Shown here piece after piece: positions 4,437 to 25,420 of a stretch of 28,426 nt of DNA; positions within the stretch are counted from its first letter, which is position 1; every line of letters starts with the position of its first letter. A model generated the notes under the pieces. It was not told the DNA's origin. It did no database searches and saw only the letters and a list, made by a program, of their open reading frames with translations. The position numbers were made by a program, and so were the translations under genes. Source of the stretch: a virus. Location of the stretch: positions 1-28,426 of IMG/VR virus record IMGVR_UViG_3300045010_000750; one strand, given 5' to 3'.

Positions 4437-4724
4437 TTATCCATTGGCGAACACGTTGGGAGAACCCTGTATCACTATAGTGCAGGTGGGATCACCCACT
4501 CTGCCTAGAGGTAAGAATTCTGCGAAAACATCGGGAGAGCCCCTTCTGAGTGGGGCCGTGTGGGGGCAACATCTTTTTCCGCAAGGCCGTAGGTGTATTG
4601 TGTTGCTGTGACCTTGACAGCTCAATGGTATGCCGTTGGCGAACACAGTTCTAACATGACCTTTTCTTCGCGGCCGGCTACAATGAACTAATTCCGCATC
4701 TCCTAATCTTGCTACTGCTGGCAT
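4437..4724 (-). CDS. PAAR-domain spike-tip protein
   Basis: A 95-residue protein that begins MPAVARLGD, the typical PAAR opening. It contains repeated G-S-P-x-V-F-A and V-F-A-N-G units (about 27-31, 72-78 and 87-95) and a second R-V-G-D at about 84, as expected for the small cone that caps a phage or T6SS spike. His and Cys residues (near 14-15, 38, 43 and 48-55) are candidates for the metal site at the tip. By analogy with T4 gp5.4 it would sharpen the central spike and help pierce the outer membrane. A CATAAATA late box ends exactly 5 nt before the ATG and no Shine-Dalgarno is visible. The next gene, 3 nt downstream, is probably in the same transcript. Confidence 0.88.
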   Translation of the reverse strand: MPAVARLGDAELVHCSRPRRKGHVRTVFANGIPLSCQGHSNTIHLRPCGKRCCPHTAPLRRGSPDVFAEFLPLGRVGDPTCTIVIQGSPNVFANG

Positions 4725-4729
4725 ATCAG

Positions 4730-4737
4730 TATTTATG
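4730..4737 (-). promoter_or_regulatory. Late-type promoter box CATAAATA, 5 nt from ATG
   Basis: The minus strand reads CATAAATA, then CTGAT, then the ATG of the PAAR gene. With T4 geometry (box about -13 to -6) the A of the ATG would be +1, giving a leaderless mRNA. Confidence 0.6.
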
Positions 4738-4755
4738 GTATATGATTATGTGCTA

Positions 4756-5856
4756 TTATAACTTGAACTTCTTAAATGCGTCTTTTTTAACGTCTTGTTT
4801 GATACCACCCACTATGTAGGATTCCACTTCCGTTTCCTGTGGCGCCACCTGCATGCCTCTAGAGCTCAGCCAATTTTGCGTCCATGGCAGTGGATTTTGA
4901 TTGCCGGGTATGTCAAACTCGGGATCAAATCCCAGTGCCTTTAATCTCTTGTTAGCTGTGTATTCCACATACTGTCCCAACAGCCTCTCATTCAATCCTA
5001 TGATTGAACCGTCCCGGAATAGATGTTTGGCCCAGGCCTTCTCCTCTTCCACGCACTTGTGGAACATCTCGATCACTTTCTTGTCCTGCCCTTTCATCAC
5101 TCGCAGCATGTCCTTGTCGTCGCCCTTCTGCCATGCCTTGATCACATGAGTGGTCAGGTTGAGATGCGTGGCCTCATCTCTGGCTATCAGCGACAGTATC
5201 TTGGCGGATCCCTCCATCAGCTTCAGTTCACCGAACGCAAAGGTGCAGGCGAAACTAACATAGAATCTCAGTCCCTCCAACAGGTTCACGTTGATCATGG
5301 CCAGATACAATTGCCTCTTCAGTTCGTCAACGTCACCCTTGCCGTTCACTGTGTACTGCAGGGCCAGGTCTCCAAATGAGTCATAGTTCTCAGTGACGGA
5401 AACCGCCCTCTTCAGGATCTCTTTGTCATTCAATATGGTGTCGAACACTTCCGATGGATCAGCATACACGTTCTTCATGATGTGCGTGTAGGCCCTGCTG
5501 TGTATGGTTTCAAAAAAATCCCAAGTCACGATGCAACCTTCCAGCTCTGAGTTAGAACAATAGGGTAGGAAGTTTAAGCACGGTCCTCGACCTTGCACAG
5601 AATCCAGCAGTGTTTGATATTTTAAATTTGCAGTGAATATGTGCTTCTGTTCCGGACGGAAGTTGGCATAGTCTGAACGATCTTTCTGCAGCGATACCTC
5701 TTCGGGTCTCCAGAAGTAGCCCAGCATGGTCTGGTTCAGCTTGTCAAACTGTGGATATTTAAAAACGTCATATCTCTGTATGGCTTGGTCCTCTCCAAAG
5801 AACATAGGTTCTTTGCTCCAATCCACTTGATTCCTATTGAATACTGTTTTTGTCAT
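4756..5856 (-). CDS. nrdB: Ribonucleotide reductase class Ia, beta subunit
   Basis: A 366-residue radical-generating subunit that holds the diiron-tyrosyl cofactor and passes the radical to NrdA for NDP-to-dNDP reduction. It is nearly colinear with E. coli NrdB as I recall it: FWRPEEVS at 48-55, metal ligands D85, E116 and H119 (ETIHSRAYTH), radical tyrosine Y123, E194 in NLLEGLRFYVSFAC, and E228 and H231 in RDEATH. The C-terminus (DAFKKFKL) is where family members bind NrdA. It follows nrdA by 40 nt, and its own sigma70-like promoter starts right after the nrdA stop codon, so it can be expressed without nrdA. All catalytic residues are present. It supplies dNTPs for phage replication. Confidence 0.97.
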   Translation of the reverse strand: MTKTVFNRNQVDWSKEPMFFGEDQAIQRYDVFKYPQFDKLNQTMLGYFWRPEEVSLQKDRSDYANFRPEQKHIFTANLKYQTLLDSVQGRGPCLNFLPYCSNSELEGCIVTWDFFETIHSRAYTHIMKNVYADPSEVFDTILNDKEILKRAVSVTENYDSFGDLALQYTVNGKGDVDELKRQLYLAMINVNLLEGLRFYVSFACTFAFGELKLMEGSAKILSLIARDEATHLNLTTHVIKAWQKGDDKDMLRVMKGQDKKVIEMFHKCVEEEKAWAKHLFRDGSIIGLNERLLGQYVEYTANKRLKALGFDPEFDIPGNQNPLPWTQNWLSSRGMQVAPQETEVESYIVGGIKQDVKKDAFKKFKL

Positions 5857-5867
5857 ACGTCTTACTT

Positions 5868-5895
5868 ATTTTATATTATGTTTTATTTTTGTCAA
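5868..5895 (-). promoter_or_regulatory. Sigma70-type promoter of nrdB
   Basis: The minus strand has TTGACA (5895-5890), a 16-nt spacer and TAAAAT (5873-5868), ending 11 nt before the nrdB ATG. The -35 lies immediately after the nrdA stop codon. The same TTGACA-N16-TAAAAT pair occurs at 22191. Confidence 0.6.
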
Positions 5896-5896
5896 C

Positions 5897-8281
5897 TTAG
5901 ATGGTGCAGGCATCACAATTTTCCGGATCTTCCTTTTCATTATCTGTTAATAATTCCACGTCTTCCCCGTCGTCTTTGACATCTATAGGATCTATGCCCG
6001 ATGGTTGTAGATCTTCTTCTTCGCCTTTGAAGTCATAGGTGTTTTGATAATAAGATGTTTTCCAACCATATTTGTAGGCAGTTAGCATGTCACTAGCCAT
6101 CACGCTCAATGGCACTTCATTGTTTTCATAGTTGAGGGGGTTGTAACTCCAGTTGCCTGATATGGCCTGATCAAAATACTTCTGCATCATGGCCGCGATC
6201 TTGATGTAACCTTCGTTGCTCTTCATTTCCCATAGCAGTGTGTAGGAATTTTTTAGTTTGGGATAGCCTGGCACTATCTGTTTCAGTGGGCCTTTCTTGC
6301 TCTTCTTCACACTCAATATGGCCCTTGGGGGCTCTATGCCGTTGGTCTCATTAGAAACCACTGAAGAACTTTCTGATGGCATCTGCGCTGACAGTGTGCT
6401 GTGTCTCAATCCATGTTTGGCAATGTCCTTCCTTAACGATTCCCAAGCCATTCTGGTCTTATGTGGCACGATCTCATCGATCTCTTTCTTGTAATGGTCT
6501 ATGGGCAACTGTCCGTCCGCGTATTTGGTCCTGTCAAATGCCGTGCATTTGCCTTTTTCCTCTGCCAGTGTGCAACTCGCCCGCAATAGATAGTATTGGA
6601 ATGCTTCTGTCAGACGATCCACTGCTTCCCATGCCTTGGGATTGTCGTATTTTAGGTCCAATTTGGCAAGATAATGCGCCAGTCCGATGTAACCTATGCC
6701 CAATGAACGCCTTGCTTTGGTGGATATTTCGGCTGCCTTTACAGGATAGTCCTGATAGTCAATGATCTCATCCAGTGCTCTCACAGCTAGGTCGCACACG
6801 GATTCCAATTCGCTCAAATTATTGATGGCGCCCACATTGATGGCACTGAGTATGCACAGAGCGATCTCTCCATTCTGATCATCAATATGCTGTATGGGTC
6901 GGGTGGGCAGGGTGATCTCTTGACATAGATTGCTCATGTAGACTTTGTCCTTGAATGATGAGTGTGAGTTGCAGTGGTCCAAGTTCATTACATAGATCCT
7001 GCCGGTCTCCGCTCGCTCTTTTAAGAGGTCAAAGAATAACTCCTGTGCCGGGATAGTTTTTTTAGGAATCTCTTTGTCTGCTTCATATTTCTTATAGAGG
7101 TCATCAAACCTGTCTGTGCCGAAAGCGTCATAAAGTCCAGGCACGTCGTGTGGAGAAAATAGAGTGATATCCTCTTCCCTGATGAATCTCTCATAGAACA
7201 GTTTACTGATCTGAATGCTGTAATCCATTCTTCGCACTCGATTGTCTTCGGTGCCTTTGTTGTTCTTCAGCACCAGGATGTCCTCGATCTCGGAATGCCA
7301 GATGGGGAAATGCACGGTGGCGTTGCCGCCCCTCACTCCATTCTGAGTGCAGCATCTCACTGTGCTTTCAAATTTCTTGAGGAATGGGATCACTCCCGTG
7401 TGTTGTACCTCACCGCCTCTTATTTTTGAGTTGATTCCCCTGATCCTGCCAGAGTTGATGCCAATGCCCGCACGCCTCGCCACATAAAGTCCAATAGCCA
7501 TATCGCTGCTGAAAATAGAAGGAAGAGTGTCATCACTATCAACAAGAACGCAACTAGCAAACTGGCGGATAGGAGTTCTAACGCCTGCCATGACAGGTGT
7601 AGGAATGTTGATCTTGTGTGTTGAAATCGCATCATAATATCTTTTAACATAGTTCATCCTTTTGTTTTTTGGGTAGTCCGCGAACAGGGTGGCGGCGATC
7701 ATCATGTACATGTCCTGTGGGGTTTCATACAACTGCCCGGAGCTCCTGTCCTGCACCAGGTACTTATCCACTATCTGCCTCAATCCCGCATAGGTGAAGT
7801 TGAGGTCTCTGTCTCTTCTTATCCAGGTATTGAGTTTCTTGATCTCCGTCATGTTGTACTTGTCCACGATGGCTTTGTCATACACTCCCTGACGGATGTT
7901 CCTTAGTATCAATTTCAATAAGGGTATGTACTCATACTGGCCGTGTGCCTCCTTGCGGATGTCGTAGCTCAGCAATCGGGCCGCGGCGTATTGATAGTTG
8001 GGGTTCTCCAGGCTGATCAGGTCATTGGCAGATCTCACAAGGATGTGTTGGATATCCTTGGAACTCATGCCATCATAGAATTGTATGTTTGCATGCATCT
8101 CGATCAGTGATGCCGACACTCCCGGTAATTCTTCGCAGGCTTCCTCCACGACGAAATGTATCTTGTTGATGTCCAGTGGCTCCAATCTGCCGTCTCTCTT
8201 CTTGACTCTGATTGTGGAACTGTTGGCTGACATGCTCGTTTTTGGTTTCGTTTCTGATTTTGTTTTTGTTTGACTATGCAT
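5897..8281 (-). CDS. nrdA: Ribonucleotide reductase class Ia, alpha subunit
   Basis: A 794-residue catalytic subunit. An ATP-cone begins near residue 24 (IRVKKRDGRLEPLDINKI), indicating allosteric control of activity. Active-site residues align with E. coli NrdA: C244 (FASCVLVDS), N451, C453 and E455 (SNLCQEITLP), and C476 (GEIALCILSA). Radical-transfer tyrosines are Y744-Y745 (SYYQNT), and the C-terminal redox pair is C789 and C792 (NCDACTI). It is slightly longer than E. coli (761) because of a Lys/Thr/Ser-rich N-terminal extension; ATG 17 (MSANSS) is an alternative start. With nrdB it converts host NDPs to dNDPs. It has a sigma70-like promoter at 8327-8355, unlike the late-box genes around it. 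Confidence 0.97.
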   Translation of the reverse strand: MHSQTKTKSETKPKTSMSANSSTIRVKKRDGRLEPLDINKIHFVVEEACEELPGVSASLIEMHANIQFYDGMSSKDIQHILVRSANDLISLENPNYQYAAARLLSYDIRKEAHGQYEYIPLLKLILRNIRQGVYDKAIVDKYNMTEIKKLNTWIRRDRDLNFTYAGLRQIVDKYLVQDRSSGQLYETPQDMYMMIAATLFADYPKNKRMNYVKRYYDAISTHKINIPTPVMAGVRTPIRQFASCVLVDSDDTLPSIFSSDMAIGLYVARRAGIGINSGRIRGINSKIRGGEVQHTGVIPFLKKFESTVRCCTQNGVRGGNATVHFPIWHSEIEDILVLKNNKGTEDNRVRRMDYSIQISKLFYERFIREEDITLFSPHDVPGLYDAFGTDRFDDLYKKYEADKEIPKKTIPAQELFFDLLKERAETGRIYVMNLDHCNSHSSFKDKVYMSNLCQEITLPTRPIQHIDDQNGEIALCILSAINVGAINNLSELESVCDLAVRALDEIIDYQDYPVKAAEISTKARRSLGIGYIGLAHYLAKLDLKYDNPKAWEAVDRLTEAFQYYLLRASCTLAEEKGKCTAFDRTKYADGQLPIDHYKKEIDEIVPHKTRMAWESLRKDIAKHGLRHSTLSAQMPSESSSVVSNETNGIEPPRAILSVKKSKKGPLKQIVPGYPKLKNSYTLLWEMKSNEGYIKIAAMMQKYFDQAISGNWSYNPLNYENNEVPLSVMASDMLTAYKYGWKTSYYQNTYDFKGEEEDLQPSGIDPIDVKDDGEDVELLTDNEKEDPENCDACTI

Positions 8282-8326
8282 ATTTAGCTAAAAATTTTAT
8301 AAGTGTTATCTTTGATTTTGTTCTTG

Positions 8327-9074: not shown

Positions 9075-10682
9075 TTATACTATTTCAATGATTCTGTAAT
9101 CCATTGTGGCATCTGCACTGATAGTTGTGGTAGTATATTTTACTTCTATTGTTTCATTTCCCGCAGTGCTATCCTTGCTAGAAAGTTCCACAGATAATGT
9201 TACTCCAATATCTCCGTTGCTTTCTTCATAATCATCATTAAAAGAAACGTAACCAGTGCTAGCATTAATTGTTAGGACCCCCACTCTAAATTGTATTCCT
9301 CGTTCAATTTTGTATTCTATTTTAATTGACTTTCCTTCAAGAGCCGGAAGATTTATTCCTGTATTATTAGGAGAAATACTGCTATCTGCCAGTGTTATTT
9401 GTCTTATTGATTTAGTATTAATACATATACCTTGCACCTCTGGCACCGGGCTTAAGTTACTTGCTCTTTTTTGAGAAAGTTCAAAATAATCTAATTCGCT
9501 CACGCACTCGTCAGTATCAAATTGAATGGCAGGATAGGTGTTAATGCTGTTGATCCCTTCATTATTGGTTCCCACGGTGCTGGCAAAGAAATTATTAAAG
9601 CTCACAATATTTCTAACTTCTCCCACCCCGGCGTCCGCTCCAACACCGGATCCCTTGACCAATATGGCGTTGGTTTTGATGGTTGCAAATTGACTGGACA
9701 ATATCTTAACGTCTTTAGGACCTAGGGTAAGACCATTCGTCGAGCCATCCAATTGTTCTCCTATGATCACCCCGTAATAACCTATAGAGAAATCACAGTT
9801 GATGAATTTTGCGCTGGTCACATCATAACTGAAGTCAACCAATCTCGCGAATTTGGTGAACTGGCAGCTGTCAAAAATTATGTTGGAGCAAGGCAATGCT
9901 GTGGTGCTGATCACTGTGACTGCTTTGCTGTTGGCAACATCTGCTCCACCCGCCGCATACGTGCCTTGGAACTTGCAATTATTGAATCTGATGTTGGATG
10001 CTCGCTCTATTTGAAAACCTGCATAGGCCTCTCCGTTTTTGAACGTAATGTTTTCGATGTTGATGTTTGTGGGCAGTGTGGCGCTGGAGTTTCCTATGTT
10101 GGCTCCCTGTTGTTTCAGACTGTCCTGCATCTTGGCCACGGCAGAATTACCACCAGACTGATAGATCACTGTCTTGTCAGAACCTTCGCCTGCCAACTGT
10201 GCATGTGGTGGAATGTATATCGGTCCAACTATGTTGTATTGTCCTGCTGGAAAGAATAATAATCTTCTAGATCTGACGTCTGTTCTATCAGTATCGCAGT
10301 ATAATTCATTCAACGCTCTTTGGATCGCTGCTGTGTCATCAGCGCTACCGTCGCCCACCGCTCCAAATGCTTTGACAGAAACGTAATCATCCAATCTCTC
10401 TTGCAGGCTTCTCACTAGATCGATGCCGTCTCCTGTGATGATCGGAGTAGCGTCTCCTAGATATCCTTTATAGACATAGGCCACAGCATCAGAGAATGAT
10501 GTGCTGTTCGCTGTCAGTATCTCTGTGTTGCCCACGGCGGGAGCACCATCGGCCACCGTGCCGTTTCCTATATACAATCGCTGCTCGTCAATGACCCAGC
10601 CCAGCTCTCCGGCCGCCAGTTGTGGCAGATCCGTGGCCCTGCCTCGTCTATGCTGTATCCTTGATATTTGAACTATTGGCAC
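9075..10682 (-). CDS. Tail fibre / beta-helix protein (Mtd-like N-terminus, pectate-lyase fold)
   Basis: A 535-residue protein. Residues 1-45 (IVQISRIQHRRG, then LPQLAAGELGWVID and LYIGNG) match the N-terminal domain shared by Mtd-type and T4-like marine phage fibres, which anchors to the tail. Residues 101-125 carry VKAFGAVGDGSADDTAAIQ, the classic opening of a pectate-lyase-like beta-helix. A long repetitive Asn/Ser/Thr-rich solenoid follows, then a beta-sandwich-like end. It would recognise or cleave a surface polysaccharide. The start is GTG at 10680-10682, supported by TAGGAG 9 nt upstream. A perfect TATAAATA late box lies 25 nt before the start. Its high GC and fibre fold contrast with the AT-rich gene downstream. 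Confidence 0.88.
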   Translation of the reverse strand: MPIVQISRIQHRRGRATDLPQLAAGELGWVIDEQRLYIGNGTVADGAPAVGNTEILTANSTSFSDAVAYVYKGYLGDATPIITGDGIDLVRSLQERLDDYVSVKAFGAVGDGSADDTAAIQRALNELYCDTDRTDVRSRRLLFFPAGQYNIVGPIYIPPHAQLAGEGSDKTVIYQSGGNSAVAKMQDSLKQQGANIGNSSATLPTNINIENITFKNGEAYAGFQIERASNIRFNNCKFQGTYAAGGADVANSKAVTVISTTALPCSNIIFDSCQFTKFARLVDFSYDVTSAKFINCDFSIGYYGVIIGEQLDGSTNGLTLGPKDVKILSSQFATIKTNAILVKGSGVGADAGVGEVRNIVSFNNFFASTVGTNNEGINSINTYPAIQFDTDECVSELDYFELSQKRASNLSPVPEVQGICINTKSIRQITLADSSISPNNTGINLPALEGKSIKIEYKIERGIQFRVGVLTINASTGYVSFNDDYEESNGDIGVTLSVELSSKDSTAGNETIEVKYTTTTISADATMDYRIIEIV

Positions 10683-10707
10683 TGTAAATTGCTCCTAAAA
10701 TTTATAG

Positions 10708-10715
10708 TATTTATA
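10708..10715 (-). promoter_or_regulatory. Perfect T4-type late promoter TATAAATA
   Basis: The minus strand reads TATAAATACTAT, identical to the T4 late consensus core, directly after the TAG stop of the exonuclease gene. It ends 25 nt before the GTG of the tail fibre, leaving a leader that contains a Shine-Dalgarno (TAGGAG). Confidence 0.8.
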
Positions 10716-11420
10716 CTATAAGATAGACTTGTAATATTGCTCTACTCTATTGAACCAGCGGCCAACCCAGTGATCATAATTGTCTATGTCAAATGTTTGA
10801 AATTCATTATTTTGCGTGCAGATAAAGACCCTGCCGTTGCGTATGCCTGTGCCAAACAATTTGTTGTGCGCCTCAGCATAGGCGACCAATTGCAGATAAT
10901 AATCTTCTATCCATTCCGCCTTTTTTAATTTCCGGGCCTGTTTGAAGTCCATTATGGCGGGGGCACCTTTGCACACTCCTATCAAGTCCGTGGTACCGGC
11001 ATACAATTCTGGGTAGTAGAGGTTGATCTCCGATCCCCACACTTCTGTCACATCCTTCAAACCATTTTCTATGATCACATTGGCCATGGCGTGGGCCTGT
11101 TGCTGTATGAGATTAGAACCGGGCACTCGGGCCTCGCCCTTGACATGCCGCTCCAGGCTGCGATGCATCACCGTTCCTATGTTGGCAGATTCTGTCGCGA
11201 TCCTCTGTGCCTCTTGCTCGCCCACTCTCTTCTTCCATGCGTTGAGATGGGTCATGTCCTTGGTCTGGCTCAGTATCGTGGTCACCGAAGGCACTGTGCG
11301 ACCGTCTGGTGTGGTGTAGTGCCTCTTGCCTTCAGGTCCTGTGCGATTTAATTCATTGTAAGGATATCGGGCCACATAGGTTATGCCTTGGGCCAGCAAA
11401 GTGTCGTTGGTAAACTTCAT
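10716..11420 (-). CDS. PD-(D/E)XK exonuclease, RecB/Cas4-like
   Basis: A 234-residue nuclease. Motifs in order: H86 in GTVMHRSLE (motif I of RecB/Cas4-type nucleases), E131 (SEINLYY), D145 (AGTTDLIG), D158 and K160 (IMDFKQARK), and Q177-x3-Y181 (LQLVAYAEAHN). The full H-D-(D/E)xK-QxxxY pattern argues for an active metal-dependent exonuclease. No iron-sulphur cysteine cluster of the Cas4/AddB type is visible. The role is probably recombination, replication or host DNA degradation. Its promoter is sigma70-type and fits exactly in the 35-nt gap before the gene, with the ATG 6 nt after the -10. That points to host-polymerase, early or middle expression and a leaderless mRNA, unlike the late fibre gene that follows. 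Confidence 0.87.
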   Translation of the reverse strand: MKFTNDTLLAQGITYVARYPYNELNRTGPEGKRHYTTPDGRTVPSVTTILSQTKDMTHLNAWKKRVGEQEAQRIATESANIGTVMHRSLERHVKGEARVPGSNLIQQQAHAMANVIIENGLKDVTEVWGSEINLYYPELYAGTTDLIGVCKGAPAIMDFKQARKLKKAEWIEDYYLQLVAYAEAHNKLFGTGIRNGRVFICTQNNEFQTFDIDNYDHWVGRWFNRVEQYYKSIL

Positions 11421-11426
11421 TATTGT

Positions 11427-11455
11427 ATTATAAGCTAGTTGTGCTATTCCGTCAA
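11427..11455 (-). promoter_or_regulatory. Sigma70-type promoter of the exonuclease gene
   Basis: TTGACG (11455-11450), a 17-nt spacer, TATAAT (11432-11427), then exactly 6 nt to the ATG. A -10 ending at -7 puts the A of the ATG at +1. It fills the whole gap between the two genes. Confidence 0.75.
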
Positions 11456-13176: not shown

Positions 13177-13503
13177 TTATTCTTCTGTTTCAGTAACTAC
13201 CTGTGCCACTCCTTTTCCTGCATGTCCTATTCCGATAGAATAGTAATATTCAGATTTTAAAAGATGATAATTTGCTATGGCCCAGTCTTTAAATGTGTTA
13301 TAATCGTTTTGATTATTCCAAATAGTAGTTGTAGTGGTTGTAGTGTAACCGTCTCCATGATCAACTATCTCTTGAGGTAGATGTGTGACTTTTCCTTCTG
13401 ACACTTTTGCAAGAAAAGCATTTTTAAGGGCTGGCACGGTCTCTTGGAAACGAGGTGTACCTGTTGGTAATTTAACAATTTCTTTTACTCTAATTTTTGG
13501 CAT
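13177..13503 (-). CDS. Hypothetical phage protein with poly-Thr tract, 108 aa
   Basis: No family recognised. It starts MPKIRVKEIVKLPTG and holds a run of seven threonines (about 54-60, GYTTTTTTTIW), which would form a strongly beta-prone edge. A C-terminal part contains EYYYSIGIGHAGKG. It is the first gene of a four-gene late run. TTTGGAG precedes the ATG at a suitable distance, and two late boxes (AATAAATA) lie 15 and 27 nt upstream. The Shine-Dalgarno, absent from genes whose box abuts the ATG, supports the start chosen. Confidence 0.55.
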   Translation of the reverse strand: MPKIRVKEIVKLPTGTPRFQETVPALKNAFLAKVSEGKVTHLPQEIVDHGDGYTTTTTTTIWNNQNDYNTFKDWAIANYHLLKSEYYYSIGIGHAGKGVAQVVTETEE

Positions 13504-13518
13504 TTTATAACTCCAAAC

Positions 13519-13538
13519 TATTTATTGTAATATTTATT
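13519..13538 (-). promoter_or_regulatory. Tandem late promoter boxes (two AATAAATA)
   Basis: Two AATAAATA boxes at 13526-13519 and 13538-13531 on the minus strand, 12 bp apart (about one helical turn), upstream of the 13503-to-11456 gene run. TGGAG lies between the nearer box and the ATG. Confidence 0.55.
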
Positions 13539-13624: not shown

Positions 13625-14167
13625 TTATAAAGATATTGTGGGTTGTATTGAATATTGCATGTGCTCAAAAGGTACATGATAAGGTAGGTACTCCGTTTTA
13701 GTTGTATATGGGCCTTCTGATAACATGAATCTATAATTTTTTGTAATAACCTGTTTAACAAAACTTATGTCATGTATTTTATTCCATTCATCGCGAGTTT
13801 TGTTCCACCCAGACTCAATCATCCATATCCAAGTAGGTAAAAAATCCGCTTCTTTAAACCATTTCATGGTGATCCTAATTTGTGTTTTATAGGCGCTGTT
13901 TAATATTGGTTTGGTTTCTGTAGATATCAATACTTTTTTATCACCAGCAATCTGTTTAAAAAAATCATGTGAAATTCCAGTTATACCAAAACTTTTTTGT
14001 CCATAAAACCTTGTTTTGCCTGGTGGCAGGTGGTAGGTATCTATAACCAACGCTTGGTCTGTTTGTGATTCGCACCAGTGTGGCTCATTTTCTAATTTAG
14101 GAGTCGCATTTTTTCCTAGGCAACTGCATCTACCCTTATAGATTTTATCACACTCTGATCGTAACAT
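13625..14167 (-). CDS. Hypothetical AT-rich phage protein, 180 aa
   Basis: No family recognised. The N-terminus carries four cysteines and a histidine (C6, C14, C16, H31, C32) that might bind a metal. The rest is rich in aromatic residues (FKEADFLPTWIWMIESGWNK) and looks like a compact alpha/beta domain. It is clearly more AT-rich than the 166-residue gene upstream, like the other probable cassette genes. A perfect TATAAATA box overlaps the end of the upstream gene, 6 nt before the ATG, with GAGG between, so it has its own late promoter. Function unknown. Confidence 0.55.
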   Translation of the reverse strand: MLRSECDKIYKGRCSCLGKNATPKLENEPHWCESQTDQALVIDTYHLPPGKTRFYGQKSFGITGISHDFFKQIAGDKKVLISTETKPILNSAYKTQIRITMKWFKEADFLPTWIWMIESGWNKTRDEWNKIHDISFVKQVITKNYRFMLSEGPYTTKTEYLPYHVPFEHMQYSIQPTISL

Positions 14168-14172
14168 TACCT

Positions 14173-14673
14173 CTATTTATATTTGAAGGTATTGTCAAAT
14201 AATGCGTGTATTTTTTCCTTAAGGTCATCGGCTTTGCGATTGGCCTCTACGTACTTGTTTTCATATATGAAGGCCTGTGCTTCGTCGTTGAGTTTTTCAG
14301 CCGATCGCCATTTCATTTTGAAACTCTTGATTTCAAATAATCTGCTGGCGAACTGCGAATCAAGGTCCAGAATTCTGAAAGGCACTTCTTTGCCATCTGC
14401 CAGATAGTGAGCTATCAATATGGCGCTCTGTTTGAGATGTATGTCATCGTGCAGTATCTTGGCCTGAATCATGTCCGCTATCACATACACGAAGCGGGTC
14501 TCGTCGGACCTGCGGGGAACGATGGCTATGTTGCCGATCAGGATGCCCTTGCTGAACTGCTTGGGCAGGTGGCGGAACGGTCGCTGCCGTTCGCTGTTGC
14601 GAGCCAACTGCTGCAACTTGTGATCCAGTTTATAGGCCTTGATCTGCCTTATCAGTTCATTGCGGTCACGCAT
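14173..14673 (-). CDS. Hypothetical phage protein, 166 aa
   Basis: No family recognised. A soluble, strongly charged protein. Basic N-terminus (RNELIRQIKAYKLDHKLQQLARNSERQRPFRHLPK), a beta-prone centre (GILIGNIAIVPRRSDETRFVYVIADM, about 42-67), and a long helical Lys/Glu/Asp-rich C-terminal part with coiled-coil character (about 130-160). It has no Cys. The last codons (Lys-Tyr-Lys-stop) contain the TATAAATA box of the next gene. It follows the 74-residue gene by 1 nt and belongs to the late run from the box at 15249. Confidence 0.55.
   Translation of the reverse strand: MRDRNELIRQIKAYKLDHKLQQLARNSERQRPFRHLPKQFSKGILIGNIAIVPRRSDETRFVYVIADMIQAKILHDDIHLKQSAILIAHYLADGKEVPFRILDLDSQFASRLFEIKSFKMKWRSAEKLNDEAQAFIYENKYVEANRKADDLKEKIHALFDNTFKYK
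14174..14181 (-). promoter_or_regulatory. Perfect late box TATAAATA inside an upstream stop region
   Basis: The minus strand reads TATAAATA, spanning the last sense codons and stop of the 166-residue gene, then 6 nt (GAGGTA) to the ATG of the 180-residue gene. Confidence 0.65.
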
Positions 14674-15256: not shown

Positions 15257-15718
15257 CTAGATCGTGTGTTTAGTAAAGTAGGTGTTTATGTAGCGTGGAT
15301 CCTGCGTGTTGAAAACGTTGCGCGGGAAAGCGGCCGTCTCCTTGCAGAAATTTATTATGGGCACTTGGTCGAAATCCTCTATCAATCCTCCACAGTCGTC
15401 GTTGTCGAATGCGTAGACACCGGGCTGCTCCACCTGCCACTCGAACTGCCATATATTATGTTTTCCCTCGTAGGCGGTGCCGAAGCGCCAGTCGGCCACT
15501 GGCTCGGTCACACGCCTTGGAGTGCTCTCCCAAGTGATGTTGCTCCTCATCTGCAGCAGTTGTATCAGCGTGGTGAAGTTGGACTGCTGGTTGCGGGCGA
15601 TGGTGAGCGTGGCGGCATCATGCACCAGCTCGCCGCTCTTGGTGGTGAATGGGAATTGGCTGCGCAGCACGCCGTTCTCCGTGATGTCCACCATGGTGGT
15701 AATTGAATATGTGTGCAT
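15257..15718 (-). CDS. Conserved-looking hypothetical phage protein, 153 aa
   Basis: No named family. A beta-rich soluble protein with no membrane segment: MHTYSITTMVDITENG, then a middle part with WRFGTAYEGKHNIWQFEW, then an acidic patch (DNDDCGGLIEDFDQVP, about 104-119) and a conserved-looking end (CKETAAFPRNVFNTQDPRYI). The style is that of short structural or assembly proteins of T4-like marine phages. It has its own ATTAAATA box 9 nt before the ATG. Function unknown. Confidence 0.6.
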   Translation of the reverse strand: MHTYSITTMVDITENGVLRSQFPFTTKSGELVHDAATLTIARNQQSNFTTLIQLLQMRSNITWESTPRRVTEPVADWRFGTAYEGKHNIWQFEWQVEQPGVYAFDNDDCGGLIEDFDQVPIINFCKETAAFPRNVFNTQDPRYINTYFTKHTI

Positions 15719-15727
15719 ATAAACAAC

Positions 15728-15735
15728 TATTTAAT
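15728..15735 (-). promoter_or_regulatory. Late-type box ATTAAATA
   Basis: The minus strand reads ATTAAATA and ends 9 nt before the ATG of the 153-residue gene, the same 9-nt class as at 885 and 2012. No Shine-Dalgarno is present. Confidence 0.4.
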
Positions 15736-16199: not shown

Positions 16200-16343
16200 T
16201 TATAATGGATAAGAGCTGTCTTTGATGGGCACAGGCTCCTGTTTGCAGTGCCCACAGGCACAGGTGCCACATTCCATGCACTGAAAGCATTCTTCGTCGC
16301 AATGATGCTCGCAACCGCATCTTTCACATACACATTCTATCAT
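16200..16343 (-). CDS. Metallothionein-like Cys-rich peptide, 47 aa
   Basis: A 47-residue frame with 11 cysteines and 3 histidines in the first 33 residues: C4, C6, C9, C11, H13, H14, C15, C19, C22, C25, C28, C30, H32, C33. C-x-C and C-x2-C spacing dominates (CVCERCGC, then CFQCMECGTCACGHC), as in bacterial SmtA/BmtA metallothioneins. The tail (KQEPVPIKDSSYPL) has none. Such peptides chelate Zn(II), Cd(II) or Cu(I); a zinc-ribbon-like role is the alternative. The ATG is supported by an AATAAATA box exactly 5 nt upstream, shared as a palindrome with the divergent gene at 16367. It is too short for routine gene finders. A competing 61-residue frame on the same strand lacks any such pattern. Confidence 0.78.
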   Translation of the reverse strand: MIECVCERCGCEHHCDEECFQCMECGTCACGHCKQEPVPIKDSSYPL

Positions 16344-16366
16344 GACGATATTTATTAAATATTGTG
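16344..16366. promoter_or_regulatory. 23-bp symmetric divergent late promoter
   Basis: Between two divergent ATGs lie 5 nt, the 13-bp palindrome TATTTATTAAATA (16349-16361), and 5 nt. Each strand reads a TAAATA box (AATAAATA on minus, ATTAAATA on plus) ending exactly 5 nt before its ATG. There is no room for a Shine-Dalgarno on either side. Confidence 0.65.
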
Positions 16367-17491
16367 ATGAAAAAAACTTATATCATTCTTGATGCCATGA
16401 GCACGGGCAACATTCCAGAAATCCGGGGTTATCTAGGTTATTTTGATCACGCTCATATAACCATTGACATGTCTGACCATTACTTTGAGTATGAGTCTGT
16501 GCCTTTGGATCTATACGCATACAAATATGTCATAATTGACACGTTCTTTGTCAATAGATTCTCTGTAGGCAAAGAATATAGAGAAGATTTAAAAAGAAGA
16601 ATTAGATCTCTTACAAAATTAAATTTTATACCTGTGTTTGCAAATCTTTGGGAAAGATATGATTTTAAGAGCTCTAAACCCAATACCACACAGCTTTTTA
16701 AAGATTTGAGAAATTTAAATATATCAAAATATTGTGAACTGCATGGCAGCAGGTCATTTTTTTGGTGGCTGATGCATGAGAAATATATCAAAAGCGATGT
16801 GATTAGATATTTAACAATAGATCATTCGAGCAAACTTTATGATTTTTTATATCTAAATAAACAACCTCGTCCACATAGGGTACATTTGTATAATCAGCTG
16901 CTGTTATCTAATTCTTTAAAAAATTGTTTGTATACCTATAGAAATGATCAGCATTATCATTATGGTATAGACACGAGCATGCAAAAAATTAATAAAGTTT
17001 TACCACCACAATACGAAATTCCTGAAGTTAGATATAACTACCCTCTGCATGGATATGATCAACAGATATACCCCATACCTTATAATCACTCAAAAATCAG
17101 CATTGTAACTGAAACCCTTGCAGATGATCCCAAGAATTCAGGATTCCCTTTATTTTTAACAGAAAAGATATGGAAACCTATAATCTGTCAGCAACCTTTC
17201 ATAGTTTATGGGCAGCGAGGTTATTTGAAATGTCTTCGCGAAATGGGATTCAAAACATTTGATCGCATGTGGGACGAGTCATATGATGATGAACCAAATT
17301 GGTTGAGGAGAGGAACTAAGATAGCTAATCTAGCGAGATCTCTAGAGGGAATAGATGCTGCAAAGTTATATGCCGAAACAGAAGGAATAAGATCCCATAA
17401 TTTTAAAATATTTTCTGACAGTGCAATGTTGAGATCTGTCATTGTGGAGGACGTGGTGAAGTCCTTGTTCAACAGCTTTGTTAAGTTTTAA
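16367..17491 (+). CDS. Putative glycosyltransferase (marine-phage type, GT10-like C-terminal motif)
   Basis: A 374-residue protein from ATG 16367, chosen over GTG 16364 because the ATG is 5 nt from the late box. The C-terminal half holds SIVTET (245-250), then FLTEKIWKPI (263-272), CQQPFIVYG (274-282) and GYLKCLREMGFKTF (285-298), with DESYDDE after. The T-E-K-I-x-K-P-I and P-F-I-V-x-G signatures resemble the nucleotide-sugar-binding part of GT10 fucosyltransferases and exostosin-like enzymes. The N-terminal half is not recognised. It is AT-rich compared with the convergent gene it overlaps by 11 nt at the 3' end, so it is likely an acquired cassette. It may modify a virion or host-surface glycan; acceptor unknown. 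Confidence 0.65.
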   Translation: MKKTYIILDAMSTGNIPEIRGYLGYFDHAHITIDMSDHYFEYESVPLDLYAYKYVIIDTFFVNRFSVGKEYREDLKRRIRSLTKLNFIPVFANLWERYDFKSSKPNTTQLFKDLRNLNISKYCELHGSRSFFWWLMHEKYIKSDVIRYLTIDHSSKLYDFLYLNKQPRPHRVHLYNQLLLSNSLKNCLYTYRNDQHYHYGIDTSMQKINKVLPPQYEIPEVRYNYPLHGYDQQIYPIPYNHSKISIVTETLADDPKNSGFPLFLTEKIWKPIICQQPFIVYGQRGYLKCLREMGFKTFDRMWDESYDDEPNWLRRGTKIANLARSLEGIDAAKLYAETEGIRSHNFKIFSDSAMLRSVIVEDVVKSLFNSFVKF

Positions 17492-18695
17492 ATTTATTGA
17501 TAGCAGTTAGATTTTTTCTGCTGAATCCCAATCGATCCACCAACTTGACTGCATCTCCGGCCGTGCCCACCGCCACGAACCCTTCTGGATCTGTGACCTC
17601 CAGTCCCGCGTCGGTCTGTGCGAACGTGCCGATGGCCGTGGCCTTGTTCAATTTCACCAGTGTTAGATTCTTGAGTGCCATCGCTTCCTTGTAGAACGCC
17701 ATCATGGCCGCCAAAGGTTTTTGCATCTGTCGCAGGAATTGGGGCATGTCTTTCATCTTCTGCTGTCTCAGTTGCAGGGCCTTCTGTGCCTTCAGCCCCG
17801 CTGCCTGCTGTTGCATCCTGCCCTTATAGAATTGTGCAAAGTCTTGGAGATACTTGCTGGTGTCTGTGGGTATCCGGCCCTGCCTTATTTGATCATTGAT
17901 GAACAGCATGAAGAAAGGAAGGAAGTCCTTGTTCACTCCCAGCATGGCAGAAAGATTAGTTGGCACCTTGCTCAGCAAAGACTTCAGCTGCTCTATGCCT
18001 GCTGTGAACTGCTGTTGCTCTTCTGCTGTGAAGTTGGCTGTCCCGCTGACATTCTTGTACGTGGCATTGTCGAACCACACATCTGGTGTGCGGGTGAATG
18101 ACTCCACGTCAGCGCCATACTCTGCCTTTAGATTGGCTATGGTATCTCCCGTGTAGGTGGTGTGGAATATGATGCCCACCTGTGCCGCTGCCATCTGTCT
18201 ACCCAGGTCGCTGTTCTCGGGCACTGCGTATGTGATGGTATTGGGCCGGAAGGTTATGTAGTTCTCTCCCGACATGCTCCGCCTCGTGAGCGTGTCCCTG
18301 TCGAACATGAAGTCGCCCTGCACAATGCCCTGGATGTTCAATTTTTTCAGATGCACCAGGCACTTCAGTAATTTCTGTCCCAGGTCGTCCGTGCCATGGT
18401 TGCGGGCTATGTCTTCCTTGGTGTAGTTTAGCTTGGGAGTCTTGGCGAATATGCCCTTGGTGCCCACGAACCATCGGCCGTTCTCGGGATTGATTCCACA
18501 CACTATGGCCGGTGCGCCATCCCACTTGACCGACACGTTGATGGGTCGATCGGCCGATCCCTGCAGTGTTTGCAATATGCCTTGGAAGTAATTGATCACT
18601 GCTTCACCGCCCGAGTGGCCATCGGTTAGGATGACATCTTCTATGTGTTGCAGGTGAGTTCTCTTAAACTCGTTTAGTACTTCTTCTATCAGCAT
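17481..18695 (-). CDS. Phage protein with ligase-like KWDG nucleotidyltransferase motif, 404 aa
   Basis: Residues 55-81 read VSVKWDGAPAIVCG, then RWFVGTKG. K57-W-D59-G60 matches the K-x-D-G active site of covalent nucleotidyltransferases (DNA/RNA ligases, capping enzymes), in which Lys takes AMP or GMP. Later VQGDFMFD (125-132) sits where motif III (D-G-E-x) would fall, and YITFRPNTITYAV (146-158) resembles a further strand. Motifs IV and V are not certain. The C-terminal half (about 240-350) is helical, Gln/Lys-rich and not typical of ligases. This family is seen as a conserved hypothetical in T4-like marine phages; ligase activity is inference. It overlaps the stop of the 100-residue gene by 1 nt and shares its late box at 19003. 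Confidence 0.6.
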   Translation of the reverse strand: MLIEEVLNEFKRTHLQHIEDVILTDGHSGGEAVINYFQGILQTLQGSADRPINVSVKWDGAPAIVCGINPENGRWFVGTKGIFAKTPKLNYTKEDIARNHGTDDLGQKLLKCLVHLKKLNIQGIVQGDFMFDRDTLTRRSMSGENYITFRPNTITYAVPENSDLGRQMAAAQVGIIFHTTYTGDTIANLKAEYGADVESFTRTPDVWFDNATYKNVSGTANFTAEEQQQFTAGIEQLKSLLSKVPTNLSAMLGVNKDFLPFFMLFINDQIRQGRIPTDTSKYLQDFAQFYKGRMQQQAAGLKAQKALQLRQQKMKDMPQFLRQMQKPLAAMMAFYKEAMALKNLTLVKLNKATAIGTFAQTDAGLEVTDPEGFVAVGTAGDAVKLVDRLGFSRKNLTAINKFKT

Positions 18696-18997
18696 TATTC
18701 ATCCTCGTCGCGGAGTTCACCATCTTTGAGGCTGAGGCTGTTCTTGATCTCTTTGGATTCTTTTATTTTGGTAACACCTCTGCTGAATTTGGAGGGATCT
18801 AAATTTTTTATGGCAGAATTAAATCTCTTTTCCAGCAGATATGCGGTCTCTTGATCGAAGTTCTCTCGGATATAGTTTATGAGATTGATTGAAGAATCAA
18901 TGATGTGGCTGGCCCTGCTCTCCACAAAGTGTTCTGGGTTCTTGTTCACCTGTACCGAGCTTAATTCTTCTAGGATACTGCGAATTTTTTTCTGCAT
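18695..18997 (-). CDS. Hypothetical phage protein, 100 aa
   Basis: No family recognised. A charged all-helical protein (MQKKIRSILEELSSVQ, then SSINLINYIRENFDQETAYLLEKRF, ending in an acidic DGELRDEDE). It has no Cys or membrane span. GAGG within its last codons serves as Shine-Dalgarno for the KWDG protein, with stop and start overlapping, so the two are translationally coupled and may act together. The GTTAAATA box ends 5 nt before the ATG. Confidence 0.6.
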   Translation of the reverse strand: MQKKIRSILEELSSVQVNKNPEHFVESRASHIIDSSINLINYIRENFDQETAYLLEKRFNSAIKNLDPSKFSRGVTKIKESKEIKNSLSLKDGELRDEDE

Positions 18998-19002
18998 ATG
19001 AG

Positions 19003-19010
19003 TATTTAAC
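19003..19010 (-). promoter_or_regulatory. Late-type box GTTAAATA, 5 nt from ATG
   Basis: GTTAAATA, then CTCAT, then the ATG of the 100-residue gene on the minus strand. It is embedded in a short palindrome ATGAGTATTTAACTCAT (18998-19014). No Shine-Dalgarno. Confidence 0.55.
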
Positions 19011-19062: not shown

Positions 19063-19887
19063 ATGGTTAAATACAAAATGATCACTAATTTGATACAGAA
19101 TGGCAAAACACAGACCATACAAGAATTAGATGTGTATCAGCAGAGCCTGCTGTTTGCTGAGCTCAGCATGATAGCCTACAATTCAGAGAAACAGGCCATG
19201 GCACAGGCCAAGGAAATGGGATTCACAGAAGTACATTTCTTTGACCACAAGGGCGCTCAGGGCTACACTTTTGAGACCGAGCATGATCTAGTGGTATCTT
19301 GTAGAGGCACGGAACCCACGCAGTTGAATGACATAGCTGCGGACCTCAGGGCACTGCCGGTCAAGAGCCAGACCATGGGCAGGGTTCACGAAGGATTCAA
19401 ATTGGAAGCGGACAAGATCTGGGCAGGTATTAAAACACAGATCGAGCAATCAGAAAAAATGACATGGTTCACCGGACACAGCCTAGGTGCTGCCATGACC
19501 ACACTATGCGCCGCAAGATGTTTTTACCATGCTCCGCAGATCACCATAGGAGCCATATTCACATATGGTTCACCCCGAGCAGGCTGGAGAGGCTTCATCA
19601 AAAAACTACACGTGCCACACTGGCGTTGGGTCAATAACGCAGACGTTGTTACCAGGGTGCCACTAGCCGTCATGGGCTATGTGCATCATGGCGACATCAG
19701 ATACATCAACACCTATGGCAATGTGAGAGAGTTCACCTACTGGCAACGATTGAAAGACAAGTTCCGAGGCATATGGAAGGGATTAAAAAAATTCTCATTC
19801 AAGAATTTCAGTGATCACGACATAACCAACTATGTGGCACACATCGCCCGCAAGGTCAGTGGCACGGAATATCCACAACCTAAATAA
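19063..19887 (+). CDS. Class 3 lipase (alpha/beta hydrolase)
   Basis: A 274-residue hydrolase from ATG 19063; TTG 19036 and ATG 19078 are alternatives, the latter 4 nt after a GTTAAATA box. It has the class 3 lipase pattern: VVSCRGTEPTQLNDIAADL (78-96), nucleophile elbow TGHSLGAA with Ser140, FTYGSPRAG (166-174), Asp194 in NNADVVTRVP, and His252 in SDHDITNYVAHI. The full Ser-Asp-His triad is present. No signal peptide is visible, so it would act in the cytoplasm or after lysis. It likely cleaves acyl glycerides or phospholipids. The next gene, 35 nt on, is a membrane protein, so the pair may act on the host envelope at lysis. Confidence 0.87.
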   Translation: MVKYKMITNLIQNGKTQTIQELDVYQQSLLFAELSMIAYNSEKQAMAQAKEMGFTEVHFFDHKGAQGYTFETEHDLVVSCRGTEPTQLNDIAADLRALPVKSQTMGRVHEGFKLEADKIWAGIKTQIEQSEKMTWFTGHSLGAAMTTLCAARCFYHAPQITIGAIFTYGSPRAGWRGFIKKLHVPHWRWVNNADVVTRVPLAVMGYVHHGDIRYINTYGNVREFTYWQRLKDKFRGIWKGLKKFSFKNFSDHDITNYVAHIARKVSGTEYPQPK

Positions 19888-22668: not shown

Positions 22669-22693
22669 TTGAGTCGACGTTAAAATGGCAAAG

Positions 22694-22718
22694 AGGGCGG
22701 CCTAGTGTCGCCCTTTTT
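22694..22718 (+). terminator. Rho-independent terminator
   Basis: Stem GGGCGGC / GTCGCCC (7 pairs, one wobble) with a CTAGT loop and an extra A-T closing pair, then TTTTT. It ends the 128-residue transcript, and the T-run reaches the last base of the convergent dehydrogenase gene. Confidence 0.85.
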
Positions 22719-23851: not shown

Positions 23852-23861
23852 AGTTGTAATT

Positions 23862-23908
23862 ATGGCTCGCTATTAGGTAATTTCAACATAAATGGCTCGC
23901 TATTAGGT
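23862..23908. repeat. 17-bp direct repeat, two copies, 30-bp period
   Basis: ATGGCTCGCTATTAGGT occurs at 23862-23878 and 23892-23908, separated by an AT-rich 13-nt spacer, in the 72-bp gap between the dehydrogenase gene and the basic gene at 23924. The 30-bp period is about three helical turns. It could be a regulator binding pair or a recombination trace. Each copy also reads Met-Ala-Arg-Tyr-stop on the plus strand, which is probably meaningless. Confidence 0.8.
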
Positions 23909-23923
23909 TTTAGAATTTTGTGA

Positions 23924-24160
23924 TTAGGCAGAGTAATCTGGCAAAGGTCCGCCATAGGCCTTGCCCTTGATCCTCTTGCCCGCCACCTTCTGCGTGCGGC
24001 CGTGTATCTTTTCCGGCCTGTTGCCAGATCGTTTCATTCGACCTTGGCTCTTACAACTGGATACCCATGACGACGGTAAACTGGATTTAGGACGACTACA
24101 AACCCCTCGCGGAGCGGGTCCTATGTTCTCATGGGGTTGACATATTTCACGGATCTTCAT
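23924..24160 (-). CDS. Small basic phage protein, 78 aa
   Basis: No family recognised. From ATG 24158-24160 (MKIREICQPHENIGPAPRG), chosen over the ATG 6 nt upstream because an ATTAAATA box ends exactly 5 nt before it. Rich in Lys, Arg, Ser and Pro, with Cys at 7, 21 and 36 and a C-terminus KGKAYGGPLPDYSA. It is probably an unstructured nucleic-acid or virion-binding protein. It is one of three small basic proteins in this stretch (with those at 21498 and 24356). Confidence 0.55.
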   Translation of the reverse strand: MKIREICQPHENIGPAPRGVCSRPKSSLPSSWVSSCKSQGRMKRSGNRPEKIHGRTQKVAGKRIKGKAYGGPLPDYSA

Positions 24161-24165
24161 ACTCA

Positions 24166-24173
24166 TATTTAAT
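24166..24173 (-). promoter_or_regulatory. Late-type box ATTAAATA, 5 nt from ATG
   Basis: ATTAAATA, then TGAGT, then ATG 24160 on the minus strand. It fixes the start of the basic 78-residue gene if the 5-nt rule holds. Confidence 0.5.
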
Positions 24174-24342
24174 CATTTGTTTGGAGTTGATCATGGCTTT
24201 ATAGTTGTATCATATGCAGATAATTGATAAATTCTATAAGCATATATTCTTTTGAGATGCTAGTTCATTTCTAAGTTTTTGTTTAAGATTATTTGCTTAA
24301 GGTGTTAAGATGTGATTAAGGTTTAATCTTGTCAGTTGGAAC
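24174..24342. other. AT-rich divergent spacer without a gene
   Basis: About 170 bp, strongly AT-rich. It holds four TTAAG elements between 24280 and 24320 and an AAGATTA/TAATCTT inverted pair (near 24284 and 24325) that could bring these together. No convincing open frame, tRNA or terminator was seen. Confidence 0.5.
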
Positions 24343-24350
24343 AATAAATA
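24343..24350 (+). promoter_or_regulatory. Late-type box AATAAATA, 5 nt from ATG
   Basis: AATAAATA, TTGTC, then ATG 24356. No Shine-Dalgarno. The ATG would be the transcription start by T4 late geometry. Confidence 0.6.
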
Positions 24351-24355
24351 TTGTC

Positions 24356-24808
24356 ATGAAGATCATAGAAATTTTAAACTTAAAAACTTCTAATACCATC
24401 AATGCTAATAAAACACAACATCTAGTGCCACAAGCTGTTGTGGCCTCGGATAATTCCACCACAACGGACTCTGCCATAGCGGAGGGCATCAATCGAGTGT
24501 TGAGGCGAGTGGCGGGCAAAGGGTTGAAACAGGGTTTCCGCTGTACCTCGGGGCCTAGGAAGGGCCGTGTGGTGGCGAAATCATCCACCTGCAACGCCAG
24601 GCTGAGCCCACTGAAGGGAGCCAAGATCGCCCAGAAGAGACAGCGGGTGGCCAAACAGACCGCCATGAAGAGATCCAGGACCATGCGGTCGGGCGGGGCA
24701 TCCAGGAGATTGAAAGGCATACAGATCGGGCGAGGCAAGGGCACCGCTCCACTGAAAAGGGGTTCTCGCCTTCAAAAAAGCAAGATAATCAAGCCCAAAA
24801 AGAAATAA
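24356..24808 (+). CDS. Highly basic phage protein with conserved RCTSGPRKGR motif, 150 aa
   Basis: From ATG 24356, chosen over TTG 24329 because of the late box. Residues 1-50 are Asn/Thr/Ser-rich and roughly neutral. From about 50 on the protein is extremely basic (Lys/Arg over a third), with FRCTSGPRKGRVVAKSSTCNAR (about 61-82) holding two cysteines 16 apart, then RRLKGIQIGRGKG and a final KPKKK. I recall similar CTSGPRKGR-type proteins as conserved hypotheticals in T4-like marine phages; this is memory, not a search. The charge suggests DNA packaging or virion-internal binding. Late expression fits that. Confidence 0.65.
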   Translation: MKIIEILNLKTSNTINANKTQHLVPQAVVASDNSTTTDSAIAEGINRVLRRVAGKGLKQGFRCTSGPRKGRVVAKSSTCNARLSPLKGAKIAQKRQRVAKQTAMKRSRTMRSGGASRRLKGIQIGRGKGTAPLKRGSRLQKSKIIKPKKK

Positions 24809-24864
24809 ACAAGCAAAATCAAACATTTAGATCCAAGATCTGAAATGATCTGGCTCTGCCTGGA

Positions 24865-24893
24865 TTGACCAATACAGTATATAATAATATAAT
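24865..24893 (+). promoter_or_regulatory. Sigma70-type promoter
   Basis: TTGACC (24865-24870), 17-nt spacer, perfect TATAAT (24888-24893), then 7 nt to the ATG at 24901. Leader is at most a base or so. Confidence 0.6.
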
Positions 24894-24900
24894 GTAGATT

Positions 24901-25140
24901 ATGATTACCAATACAAATTCAATGACCATCGACCAGATCTATGAGCAGATCCTGGAGAGCTATTTCCGGGGTGAGCTATTAGATGGCGAGTGGATGATGA
25001 GCCCAGGCCAGGTGGTAAAGGCATTCGAGACGGAGTGCCTACAACACGGCCACGCCGCGTCGGACTACACTTTATATAATGAGAGCCTGGCGGACGAGTG
25101 TGAATGCCATGTGGACAAATTGAGAACCAAGTTCATCTAG
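24901..25140 (+). CDS. Hypothetical small acidic protein, 79 aa
   Basis: No family recognised. A soluble acidic protein (MTIDQIYEQILESYFRGELLDGEWMMSPGQVVKAFETECL) with three Cys (50, 71, 73) and two His (53, 55), mostly helical. It is the first gene of the right-hand plus-strand block with host-type promoters, so it is probably an early host-interaction protein. It ends just before the GATAAATA box of the next gene. Function unknown. Confidence 0.55.
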   Translation: MITNTNSMTIDQIYEQILESYFRGELLDGEWMMSPGQVVKAFETECLQHGHAASDYTLYNESLADECECHVDKLRTKFI

Positions 25141-25148
25141 GATAAATA
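25141..25148 (+). promoter_or_regulatory. Late-type box GATAAATA, 5 nt from ATG
   Basis: GATAAATA right after the TAG of the 79-residue gene, TCAGC, then ATG 25154. It follows the 5-nt rule, yet lies in a block otherwise served by sigma70-type promoters; chance cannot be excluded. Confidence 0.4.
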
Positions 25149-25153
25149 TCAGC

Positions 25154-25420
25154 ATGGACATCATCAGCATCATCACAGGCATTTTGAGCTGGGTTCAGGT
25201 AGGAATGGGGCAGGCCCCGATCACGGCGGCCACCATATACCAGGGGGCGGCGGTCTTGGACAAGATCACCACAGAGGACTTACGCGGCACATGGACGGCG
25301 GAGATACAGGAGCACAGCATCAAGACAGTGAAAAGTTTCATCATGAGGGTGGAGGACAGCGGCACCATGCAGGGCTATTTGATAGAAGTAGAGGACCCCA
25401 GAAAAATCCAAAAAAAATAA
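25154..25420 (+). CDS. Small secreted-type protein, 88 aa, paralogue of the next gene
   Basis: Residues 1-23 are hydrophobic (MDIISIITGILSWVQVGMGQA), like a signal peptide or anchor. The rest aligns without gaps to the gene at 25500 over about 43 residues with about 16 identities: ITA, G, V, K, T, then GTW-[TS]-A-x-I-x-E and VK-x2-I. They are tandem duplicates. This copy has a longer C-terminus (GTMQGYLIEVEDPRKIQKK). No family recognised. Expected place is periplasm or inner-membrane surface. With the neighbouring two-span membrane protein it could form an envelope system such as superinfection exclusion; this is inference. Confidence 0.62.
   Translation: MDIISIITGILSWVQVGMGQAPITAATIYQGAAVLDKITTEDLRGTWTAEIQEHSIKTVKSFIMRVEDSGTMQGYLIEVEDPRKIQKK

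Follow-up and report, generated by a model that had tools for sequence, protein, structure and literature searches.

The virus record IMGVR_UViG_3300045010_000750, a 28,426-bp stretch of DNA that was analyzed over its whole length and is called the window here, raises the question of why the hexamer TAAATA so often ends exactly five nucleotides (nt) before an ATG codon. The original prediction had read these boxes as T4-type late promoters whose RNAs would begin at the start codon itself and would therefore be translated without a leader. We confirmed that the TAAATA-N5-ATG pattern is genuine and lies far above chance. Moreover, the feature is more general than had been recognized, since it extends to the Pelagibacter phage HTVC008M and to a deep T4-like lineage. 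We consider it very probable that host RNA polymerase carrying a gp55-type sigma factor begins late transcription at the A of AUG, and that this codon is also where ribosomes, probably in their 70S form, start translation.

Spacing between the late box and the start codon

TAAATA occurs 30 times in the window. An open reading frame (ORF) starts exactly 5 nt after seven of these sites, 6 nt after one, and 9 nt after three, and the count of seven at a spacing (d) of 5 corresponds to a Poisson P of about 2e-9. The earlier expectation that the spacing would prove sharper than chance was borne out by dinucleotide shuffles, in which TAAATA-N5-ATG was found 0.37 +/- 0.58 times on average and at most twice, with 0 of 100 shuffles reaching seven. 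We also counted, without prior choice of motif, all hexamers at each distance from 0 to 59 upstream of ATGs, using ORFs no shorter than 60 amino acids (aa). TAAATA at d = 5 proved the most position-specific signal, with P values of 9e-7 for the window, 1e-23 when five relatives were added to it, and 4e-28 for the 154-kb contig G017, although pooled counts contain orthologues, so that such P values overstate independence. The same combination ranks second in HTVC008M. In T4, the leading hexamers are AGGAGA (top, d = 5), GGAGAA, and GAGGAG at Shine-Dalgarno distance; thus, in G017 the late box holds the place taken by the Shine-Dalgarno sequence in T4. In histograms of the box-to-ATG distance, the maximum falls precisely at 5 for the window (7 starts), G017 (27), HTVC008M (12), and Mosig (6).

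All seven starts originally reported at a spacing of 5 (4724, 16343, 18997, and 24160 on the minus strand; 16367, 24356, and 25154 on the plus strand) are present, as are those at 6 nt (14167) and at 9 nt (875, 2029, and 15718). One near-box start, 19078 (+) at a spacing of 4, had been missed because it is hidden behind an upstream TTG. The sites are as follows.

4722–4735, minus strand: TAAATA + 5 nt + ATG; PAAR-motif gene 4437–4724 (phrog_281); spacing 5 in 4 of the 5 orthologues whose ATG aligns
16341–16354, minus strand: TAAATA + 5 nt + ATG; gene 16200–16343, 47 aa, Cys-rich; spacing 5 in 12 of 12 orthologues
16356–16369, plus strand: TAAATA + 5 nt + ATG; gene 16367–17491, divergent from 16343
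18995–19008, minus strand: TAAATA + 5 nt + ATG; virion-structural-protein gene 18695–18997 (phrog_11854); spacing 5 in 18 of 22 orthologues, 6 or 7 in the rest
19068–19080, plus strand: TAAATA + 4 nt + ATG; esterase/lipase-like gene 19078–19887 (phrog_21992); spacing 4 in 5 of 5 orthologues
24158–24171, minus strand: TAAATA + 5 nt + ATG; gene 23924–24160; spacing 5 in 5 of 6 orthologues
24345–24358, plus strand: TAAATA + 5 nt + ATG; gene 24356–24808; spacing 5 in 5 of 6 orthologues
25143–25156, plus strand: TAAATA + 5 nt + ATG; gene 25154–25420
14165–14179, minus strand: TAAATA + 6 nt + ATG; gene 13625–14167; predicted 1-nt leader; spacing 6 in 2 of 2 orthologue rows
873–890, minus strand: TAAATA + 9 nt + ATG; Rieske-domain gene 1–875, truncated at the edge of the window; leader of 4 nt predicted; G013 shares the spacing of 9
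2014–2031, plus strand: TAAATA + 9 nt + ATG; gene 2029–3219; predicted 4-nt leader; spacing 9 also in G013
15716–15733, minus strand: TAAATA + 9 nt + ATG; gene 15257–15718

The core TAAATA is exact at every one of these late sites, and the leading bases of the box vary. The divergent ATGs at 16343 and 16367 are only 23 bp apart, with the gap filled by two opposed, overlapping late boxes (16341–16369), and this arrangement is also found in G013, L007, and L008. For the lipase-like gene, the mechanical ORF start at TTG 19036 is probably wrong and ATG 19078 (+) right, because both the orthologues and the late box at a spacing of 4 favor the latter. Another ATG is located two codons upstream of 24160 and overlaps the box, and orthologues favor 24160. 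Separately, the ATG of the longest nrdA ORF (8279–8286, minus strand) overlaps a TAAATA (TAAATATG), and the true start of that gene may be downstream.

Comparison of orthologues of the window genes revealed that the box-ATG spacing stays constant while flanking bases change. Differences among orthologues after the ATG fall on codon positions one to three in the ratio 212/137/385, with the third position dominant, whereas those before the ATG are spread evenly (369/346/307). Because the third-position bias is present only downstream of the ATG, coding begins at this codon, and these genes therefore have an AUG start from which the coding sequence proceeds.

Shine-Dalgarno sequences are distributed unequally between genes with near and far boxes. 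In the window clade they precede 4 of 104 near-box ORFs versus 29 of 64 far-box ORFs (Fisher P 6e-11, from pooled orthologues, which overstates independence), and in HTVC008M the counts are 2 of 16 versus 11 of 19. These counts agree with the claim that the box starts lack a Shine-Dalgarno sequence; gene 25154 has a weak 'AGGA' overlapping its box. Conversely, Shine-Dalgarno-like sequences were found, as claimed, at all four far-box genes (10682, 13503, 15211, and 16107). Two of these contrasting sites are as follows.

10680–10713, minus strand: GTG start with an AGGAG Shine-Dalgarno sequence; late box at a distance of 25 nt upstream
13501–13536, minus strand: ATG 13503 with a GGAG Shine-Dalgarno sequence; two late boxes upstream, at 27 and 15 nt

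The phage would thus use both start modes, as its other genes keep Shine-Dalgarno sites. The proposal that a large share of transcripts is leaderless fits the promoter-proximal genes but does not cover the genes that retain these sites.

Reach among T4-like phages

The window NrdA shares ~70% identity with its counterparts in cyanophages and pelagiphages, and the nearest named phage for the window phrog_455 protein is HTVC008M (41%). These similarities indicate that the window phage is T4-like and a relative of Kyanoviridae. Its relatives are present in 33 viral contigs, the majority of which are 64–93% identical. In a tree of the phrog_455 protein, the window groups with its own clade, and long branches make the deep branching of HTVC008M, G017/G015, and Melnitz uncertain. 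Therefore, we claim neither a single origin nor multiple origins of the trait.

For HTVC008M, 12 of the 14 exact pattern matches coincide with depositor-annotated starts, among them gp2 (ATG at 18916), gp3 (75830), gp4 (18943), gp25 (31132), and the tape measure gene (16007). Its gp2 and gp4 genes diverge from a 26-bp gap that carries two opposed boxes, and double promoters similar to the 16341–16369 pair are found in G017. Because the start codons of divergent pairs in the window, HTVC008M, and G017 are separated by only 23–32 bp, there is no room for leaders. The TAAATA-N5-ATG start of gp4 is kept in contigs whose protein is merely 43–59% identical to HTVC008M gp4, and 44 gp4 loci from viral contigs hold 79 sites at d = 5 versus 0–12 at other distances (19 versus 0–7 when the closest relatives are removed). 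G017 represents the deep T4-like lineage (gp23, gp17, and gp55 are 30%, 34%, and 50% identical to those of HTVC008M), and its d = 5 sites include the tail sheath and prohead protease genes, with gp25 at d = 6. In L384, the terminase, sheath, and tube genes are each preceded by their own box. Box-linked genes hence include T4-type virion genes in all three, and in the window they include the PAAR and virion protein genes. Among the matches listed for one exact form of the site, 120 viral stretches were selected by that site, and their remaining boxes again peak at d = 5 (72 versus about 10).

The distribution is nevertheless uneven. Mosig has a smaller d = 5 peak and Melnitz a doubtful one, and the peak is absent in T4, Syn9, phiM12, phiM9, phiW-14, and PAU. 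Exact pattern matches number 0–1 in phiM12, phiM9, phiW-14, and C48C1 and show no excess in PAU; matches versus control are 5 versus 0 in S-CRM01 and 6 versus 2 in CP220. T4 was rejected as a case, because five of its 10 TAAATA-N5-ATG sites were compared with the annotation and all five reside inside genes rather than at starts.

Several further features of these genomes were recorded. No tRNA genes were found in the window, and those of its relatives comprise tRNA-Arg(tcg) at L063:13991–14067 and L073:8949–9025 and tRNAs for Arg, Leu, and Val at L074:19687–19929. The window also carries an adjoining gene pair with Rieske and ring-hydroxylating-oxygenase domains (1–1952, minus strand), which is an unusual metabolic pair in a phage. 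Homologues of the curli-type protein CsgF are located at L126:7562–9557 (HTVC008M), where they are annotated beside CsgG and CsgB, and recur in Melnitz, G015, G016, and G017.

Predicted transcription start and competing readings

The T4 late consensus TATAAATA occupies positions −13 to −6 relative to the transcription start (PMC1524935), about one helical turn before it and with no conserved −35 element (PMC2988020), and variation at −13 of the box has been reported in other T4-like phages. With the box at −13 to −6 followed by five spacer bases, the next base is +1 and corresponds to the A of ATG. The window clade has 49 promoter-like sites of the form TTGAC...TANNNT, and 12 starts account for a peak at 6 and 7 nt from these sites to the ATG. 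Because a sigma70 −10 element ends at −7, late boxes at 5 nt and −10 elements at 6–7 nt predict the same +1 despite their different geometries. The host-type promoters that had been placed 6–7 nt before the ATG were recovered for two of three genes.

11418–11455, minus strand: sigma70-type TTGACG-17-TATAAT-6-ATG; exonuclease gene 10716–11420 (phrog_298); TATAAT at 6–8 nt in 15 of 15 orthologue rows
24865–24903, plus strand: sigma70-type TTGACC-17-TATAAT-7-ATG; gene 24901–25140

The third, at 25500, is ambiguous, as its −10 element can be read either as TATAAT, 4 nt from the ATG with a spacer of 19 nt, or as AATATA, 6 nt from the ATG with a spacer of 17 nt. Overall, the placement of the ATG at the predicted +1 is supported by the T4 box position, the sharp and conserved spacing, the scarcity of near-box Shine-Dalgarno sequences, the periodicity from the ATG onward, and the sigma70 peak.

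We propose that TAAATA forms the core of late promoters of the T4 type, which would be read by host RNA polymerase with a phage gp55-type sigma factor. The promoter would be fused to the coding sequence, with the last base of the box at −6 and a spacer of five bases leading to the A of ATG at +1. Promoter-proximal late mRNAs would then be leaderless, and spacings of 6–9 nt would give leaders of 1–4 nt. Ribosomes would start at the 5′-terminal AUG with no help from a Shine-Dalgarno sequence, and 70S-type leaderless initiation is the likeliest route; some sigma70-type promoters of the window clade appear to be placed likewise. We infer that gp55 directs transcription from these boxes and that the T4 geometry applies to them. 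HTVC008M, Mosig, and Melnitz each encode gp55, gp33, and gp45, which for HTVC008M counts in favor of this reading.

The same spacing could also be expected if the box were an AU-rich translational element that sits at a fixed distance from the AUG and aids ribosome binding on mRNAs from promoters farther upstream. Some box genes do lie in same-strand runs that upstream transcription can reach, a ribosome-binding element would fit the precise spacing as well, and the box-bearing genes of G017 generally have no Shine-Dalgarno signals. However, the identical hexamer is the late promoter of the T4 family and lies 20–30 nt before leadered genes in T4, Syn9, and the window; boxes are present at divergent starts, where ATGs 23–32 bp apart allow no other promoter to fit; and the sigma70 −10 element shows a matching peak at 6–7 nt. 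We therefore judge this reading improbable. We hold a late promoter with a start site elsewhere to be just as improbable, whether RNA synthesis begins a few bases upstream, so that leaders are very short, or within the coding region, with the true start codon farther downstream. The minor d = 6 peak and scattered spacings of 7–9 nt would suit such a scheme, in which gp55-RNA polymerase may choose a different start in these hosts, but the spacing is sharpest at precisely the value that T4 geometry predicts, coding periodicity runs from the ATG onward, and the alignment of the G017 tail sheath with other sheaths begins almost at its start codon. As for chance or a start-annotation artifact, both TAAATA and ATG are frequent in AT-rich DNA, yet this explanation is refuted to the point of being negligible by the shuffles, the hexamer scan, the conservation among orthologues, and the absence of the pattern in equally AT-rich T4 (0.35 GC).

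Neither of two candidate causes of the trait was supported. Phage-encoded bS21 does not account for it, as Melnitz has bS21 but a weak or doubtful peak, and G017 has a strong peak but no bS21 was found there. A SAR11 host rich in leaderless genes is not supported by the Pelagibacteraceae samples: −10-like motifs in ~400 kb of one genome show no ATG peak at 6–7 nt, and the exact pattern count in four genomes is just modestly above control.

Leaderless initiation from gp55-type promoters is the reading we prefer, and certain observations count against it in addition to the overstated independence of the pooled P values. The RNA 5′ end at the A of ATG is a prediction from box geometry, and transcription from upstream genes could enter and add leadered copies. 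Gene 25154 is less conserved, with TAAGTA at a spacing of 5 in two close orthologues and no box in others, as is gene 15718, whose orthologues have spacings of 9 in eight, 5 in five, and 6 in one, with no box in the rest. The far-box genes of G017 have Shine-Dalgarno sequences in 0 of 12 cases, so their absence at its near-box genes is uninformative. A simple tblastn search of G017 recovered gp55 but not gp33 or gp45, and none of the three was found in the window contig, which is a fragment; here the absence of gp55 is the adverse point.

Relation to known systems and implications

The boxes share the core TAAATA with T4 late promoters and likewise precede T4-type late genes (sheath, tube, gp2, gp3, gp4, and gp25). 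They differ in that T4 and Syn9 boxes are ~20–30 nt upstream, those of T4 mostly with a Shine-Dalgarno sequence, whereas here the box ends 5 nt before the ATG and none is present. Late promoters of the related cyanophages S-PM2 and Syn9 (NATAAATA) use the same box and were published as ordinary upstream promoters (PMC2984593), and Syn9, unlike the window, has no d = 5 peak. Papers on Melnitz and marine T4-like phages likewise give the late box this conventional upstream role.

A predicted 5′-terminal AUG without a Shine-Dalgarno sequence is a feature shared with the leaderless mRNAs of Caulobacter, mycobacteria, Deinococcus, and lambda cI. The lambda case involves a single phage gene, whereas here leaderless starts are predicted to be the usual arrangement in a late regulon controlled by a phage sigma factor. 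Some bacteria have many leaderless genes, as in Caulobacter with 375 (PMC4117421), and ribosome initiation on leaderless messages has been reviewed, with lambda cI named among the cases (PMC9031893). Phage-encoded bS21, as in HTVC008M, is another proposed means to favor late phage mRNAs (PMC9723584), but it does not track the leaderless trait. Phage transcripts have been called 'often leaderless' in a passing remark (PMC5312081). In agreement with the original prediction, which knew of no account of leaderless T4-type late transcription, a full-text literature search on leaderless initiation with T4-like late promoters, cyanophages, or Pelagibacter found no description; subscription papers were mostly outside its coverage, and novelty is thus provisional.

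T4 late transcription is a textbook case in which late mRNAs are leadered and carry Shine-Dalgarno sites. We regard as evenly balanced the broader proposal that widespread aquatic T4-like phages have merged promoter and translation start into a ~14-bp module, by which the gp55-controlled late regulon would be largely leaderless and the late sigma factor would also switch the mode of translation initiation. If true, these genes would form a large natural collection of leaderless yet highly expressed genes, a rarity for a lytic phage, and a phage sigma factor would be tied to translation mode. Precise annotation of promoters and start codons in uncultured phages would become possible, and HTVC008M on Pelagibacter would offer a cultured model for how and why ribosomes accept leaderless messages.

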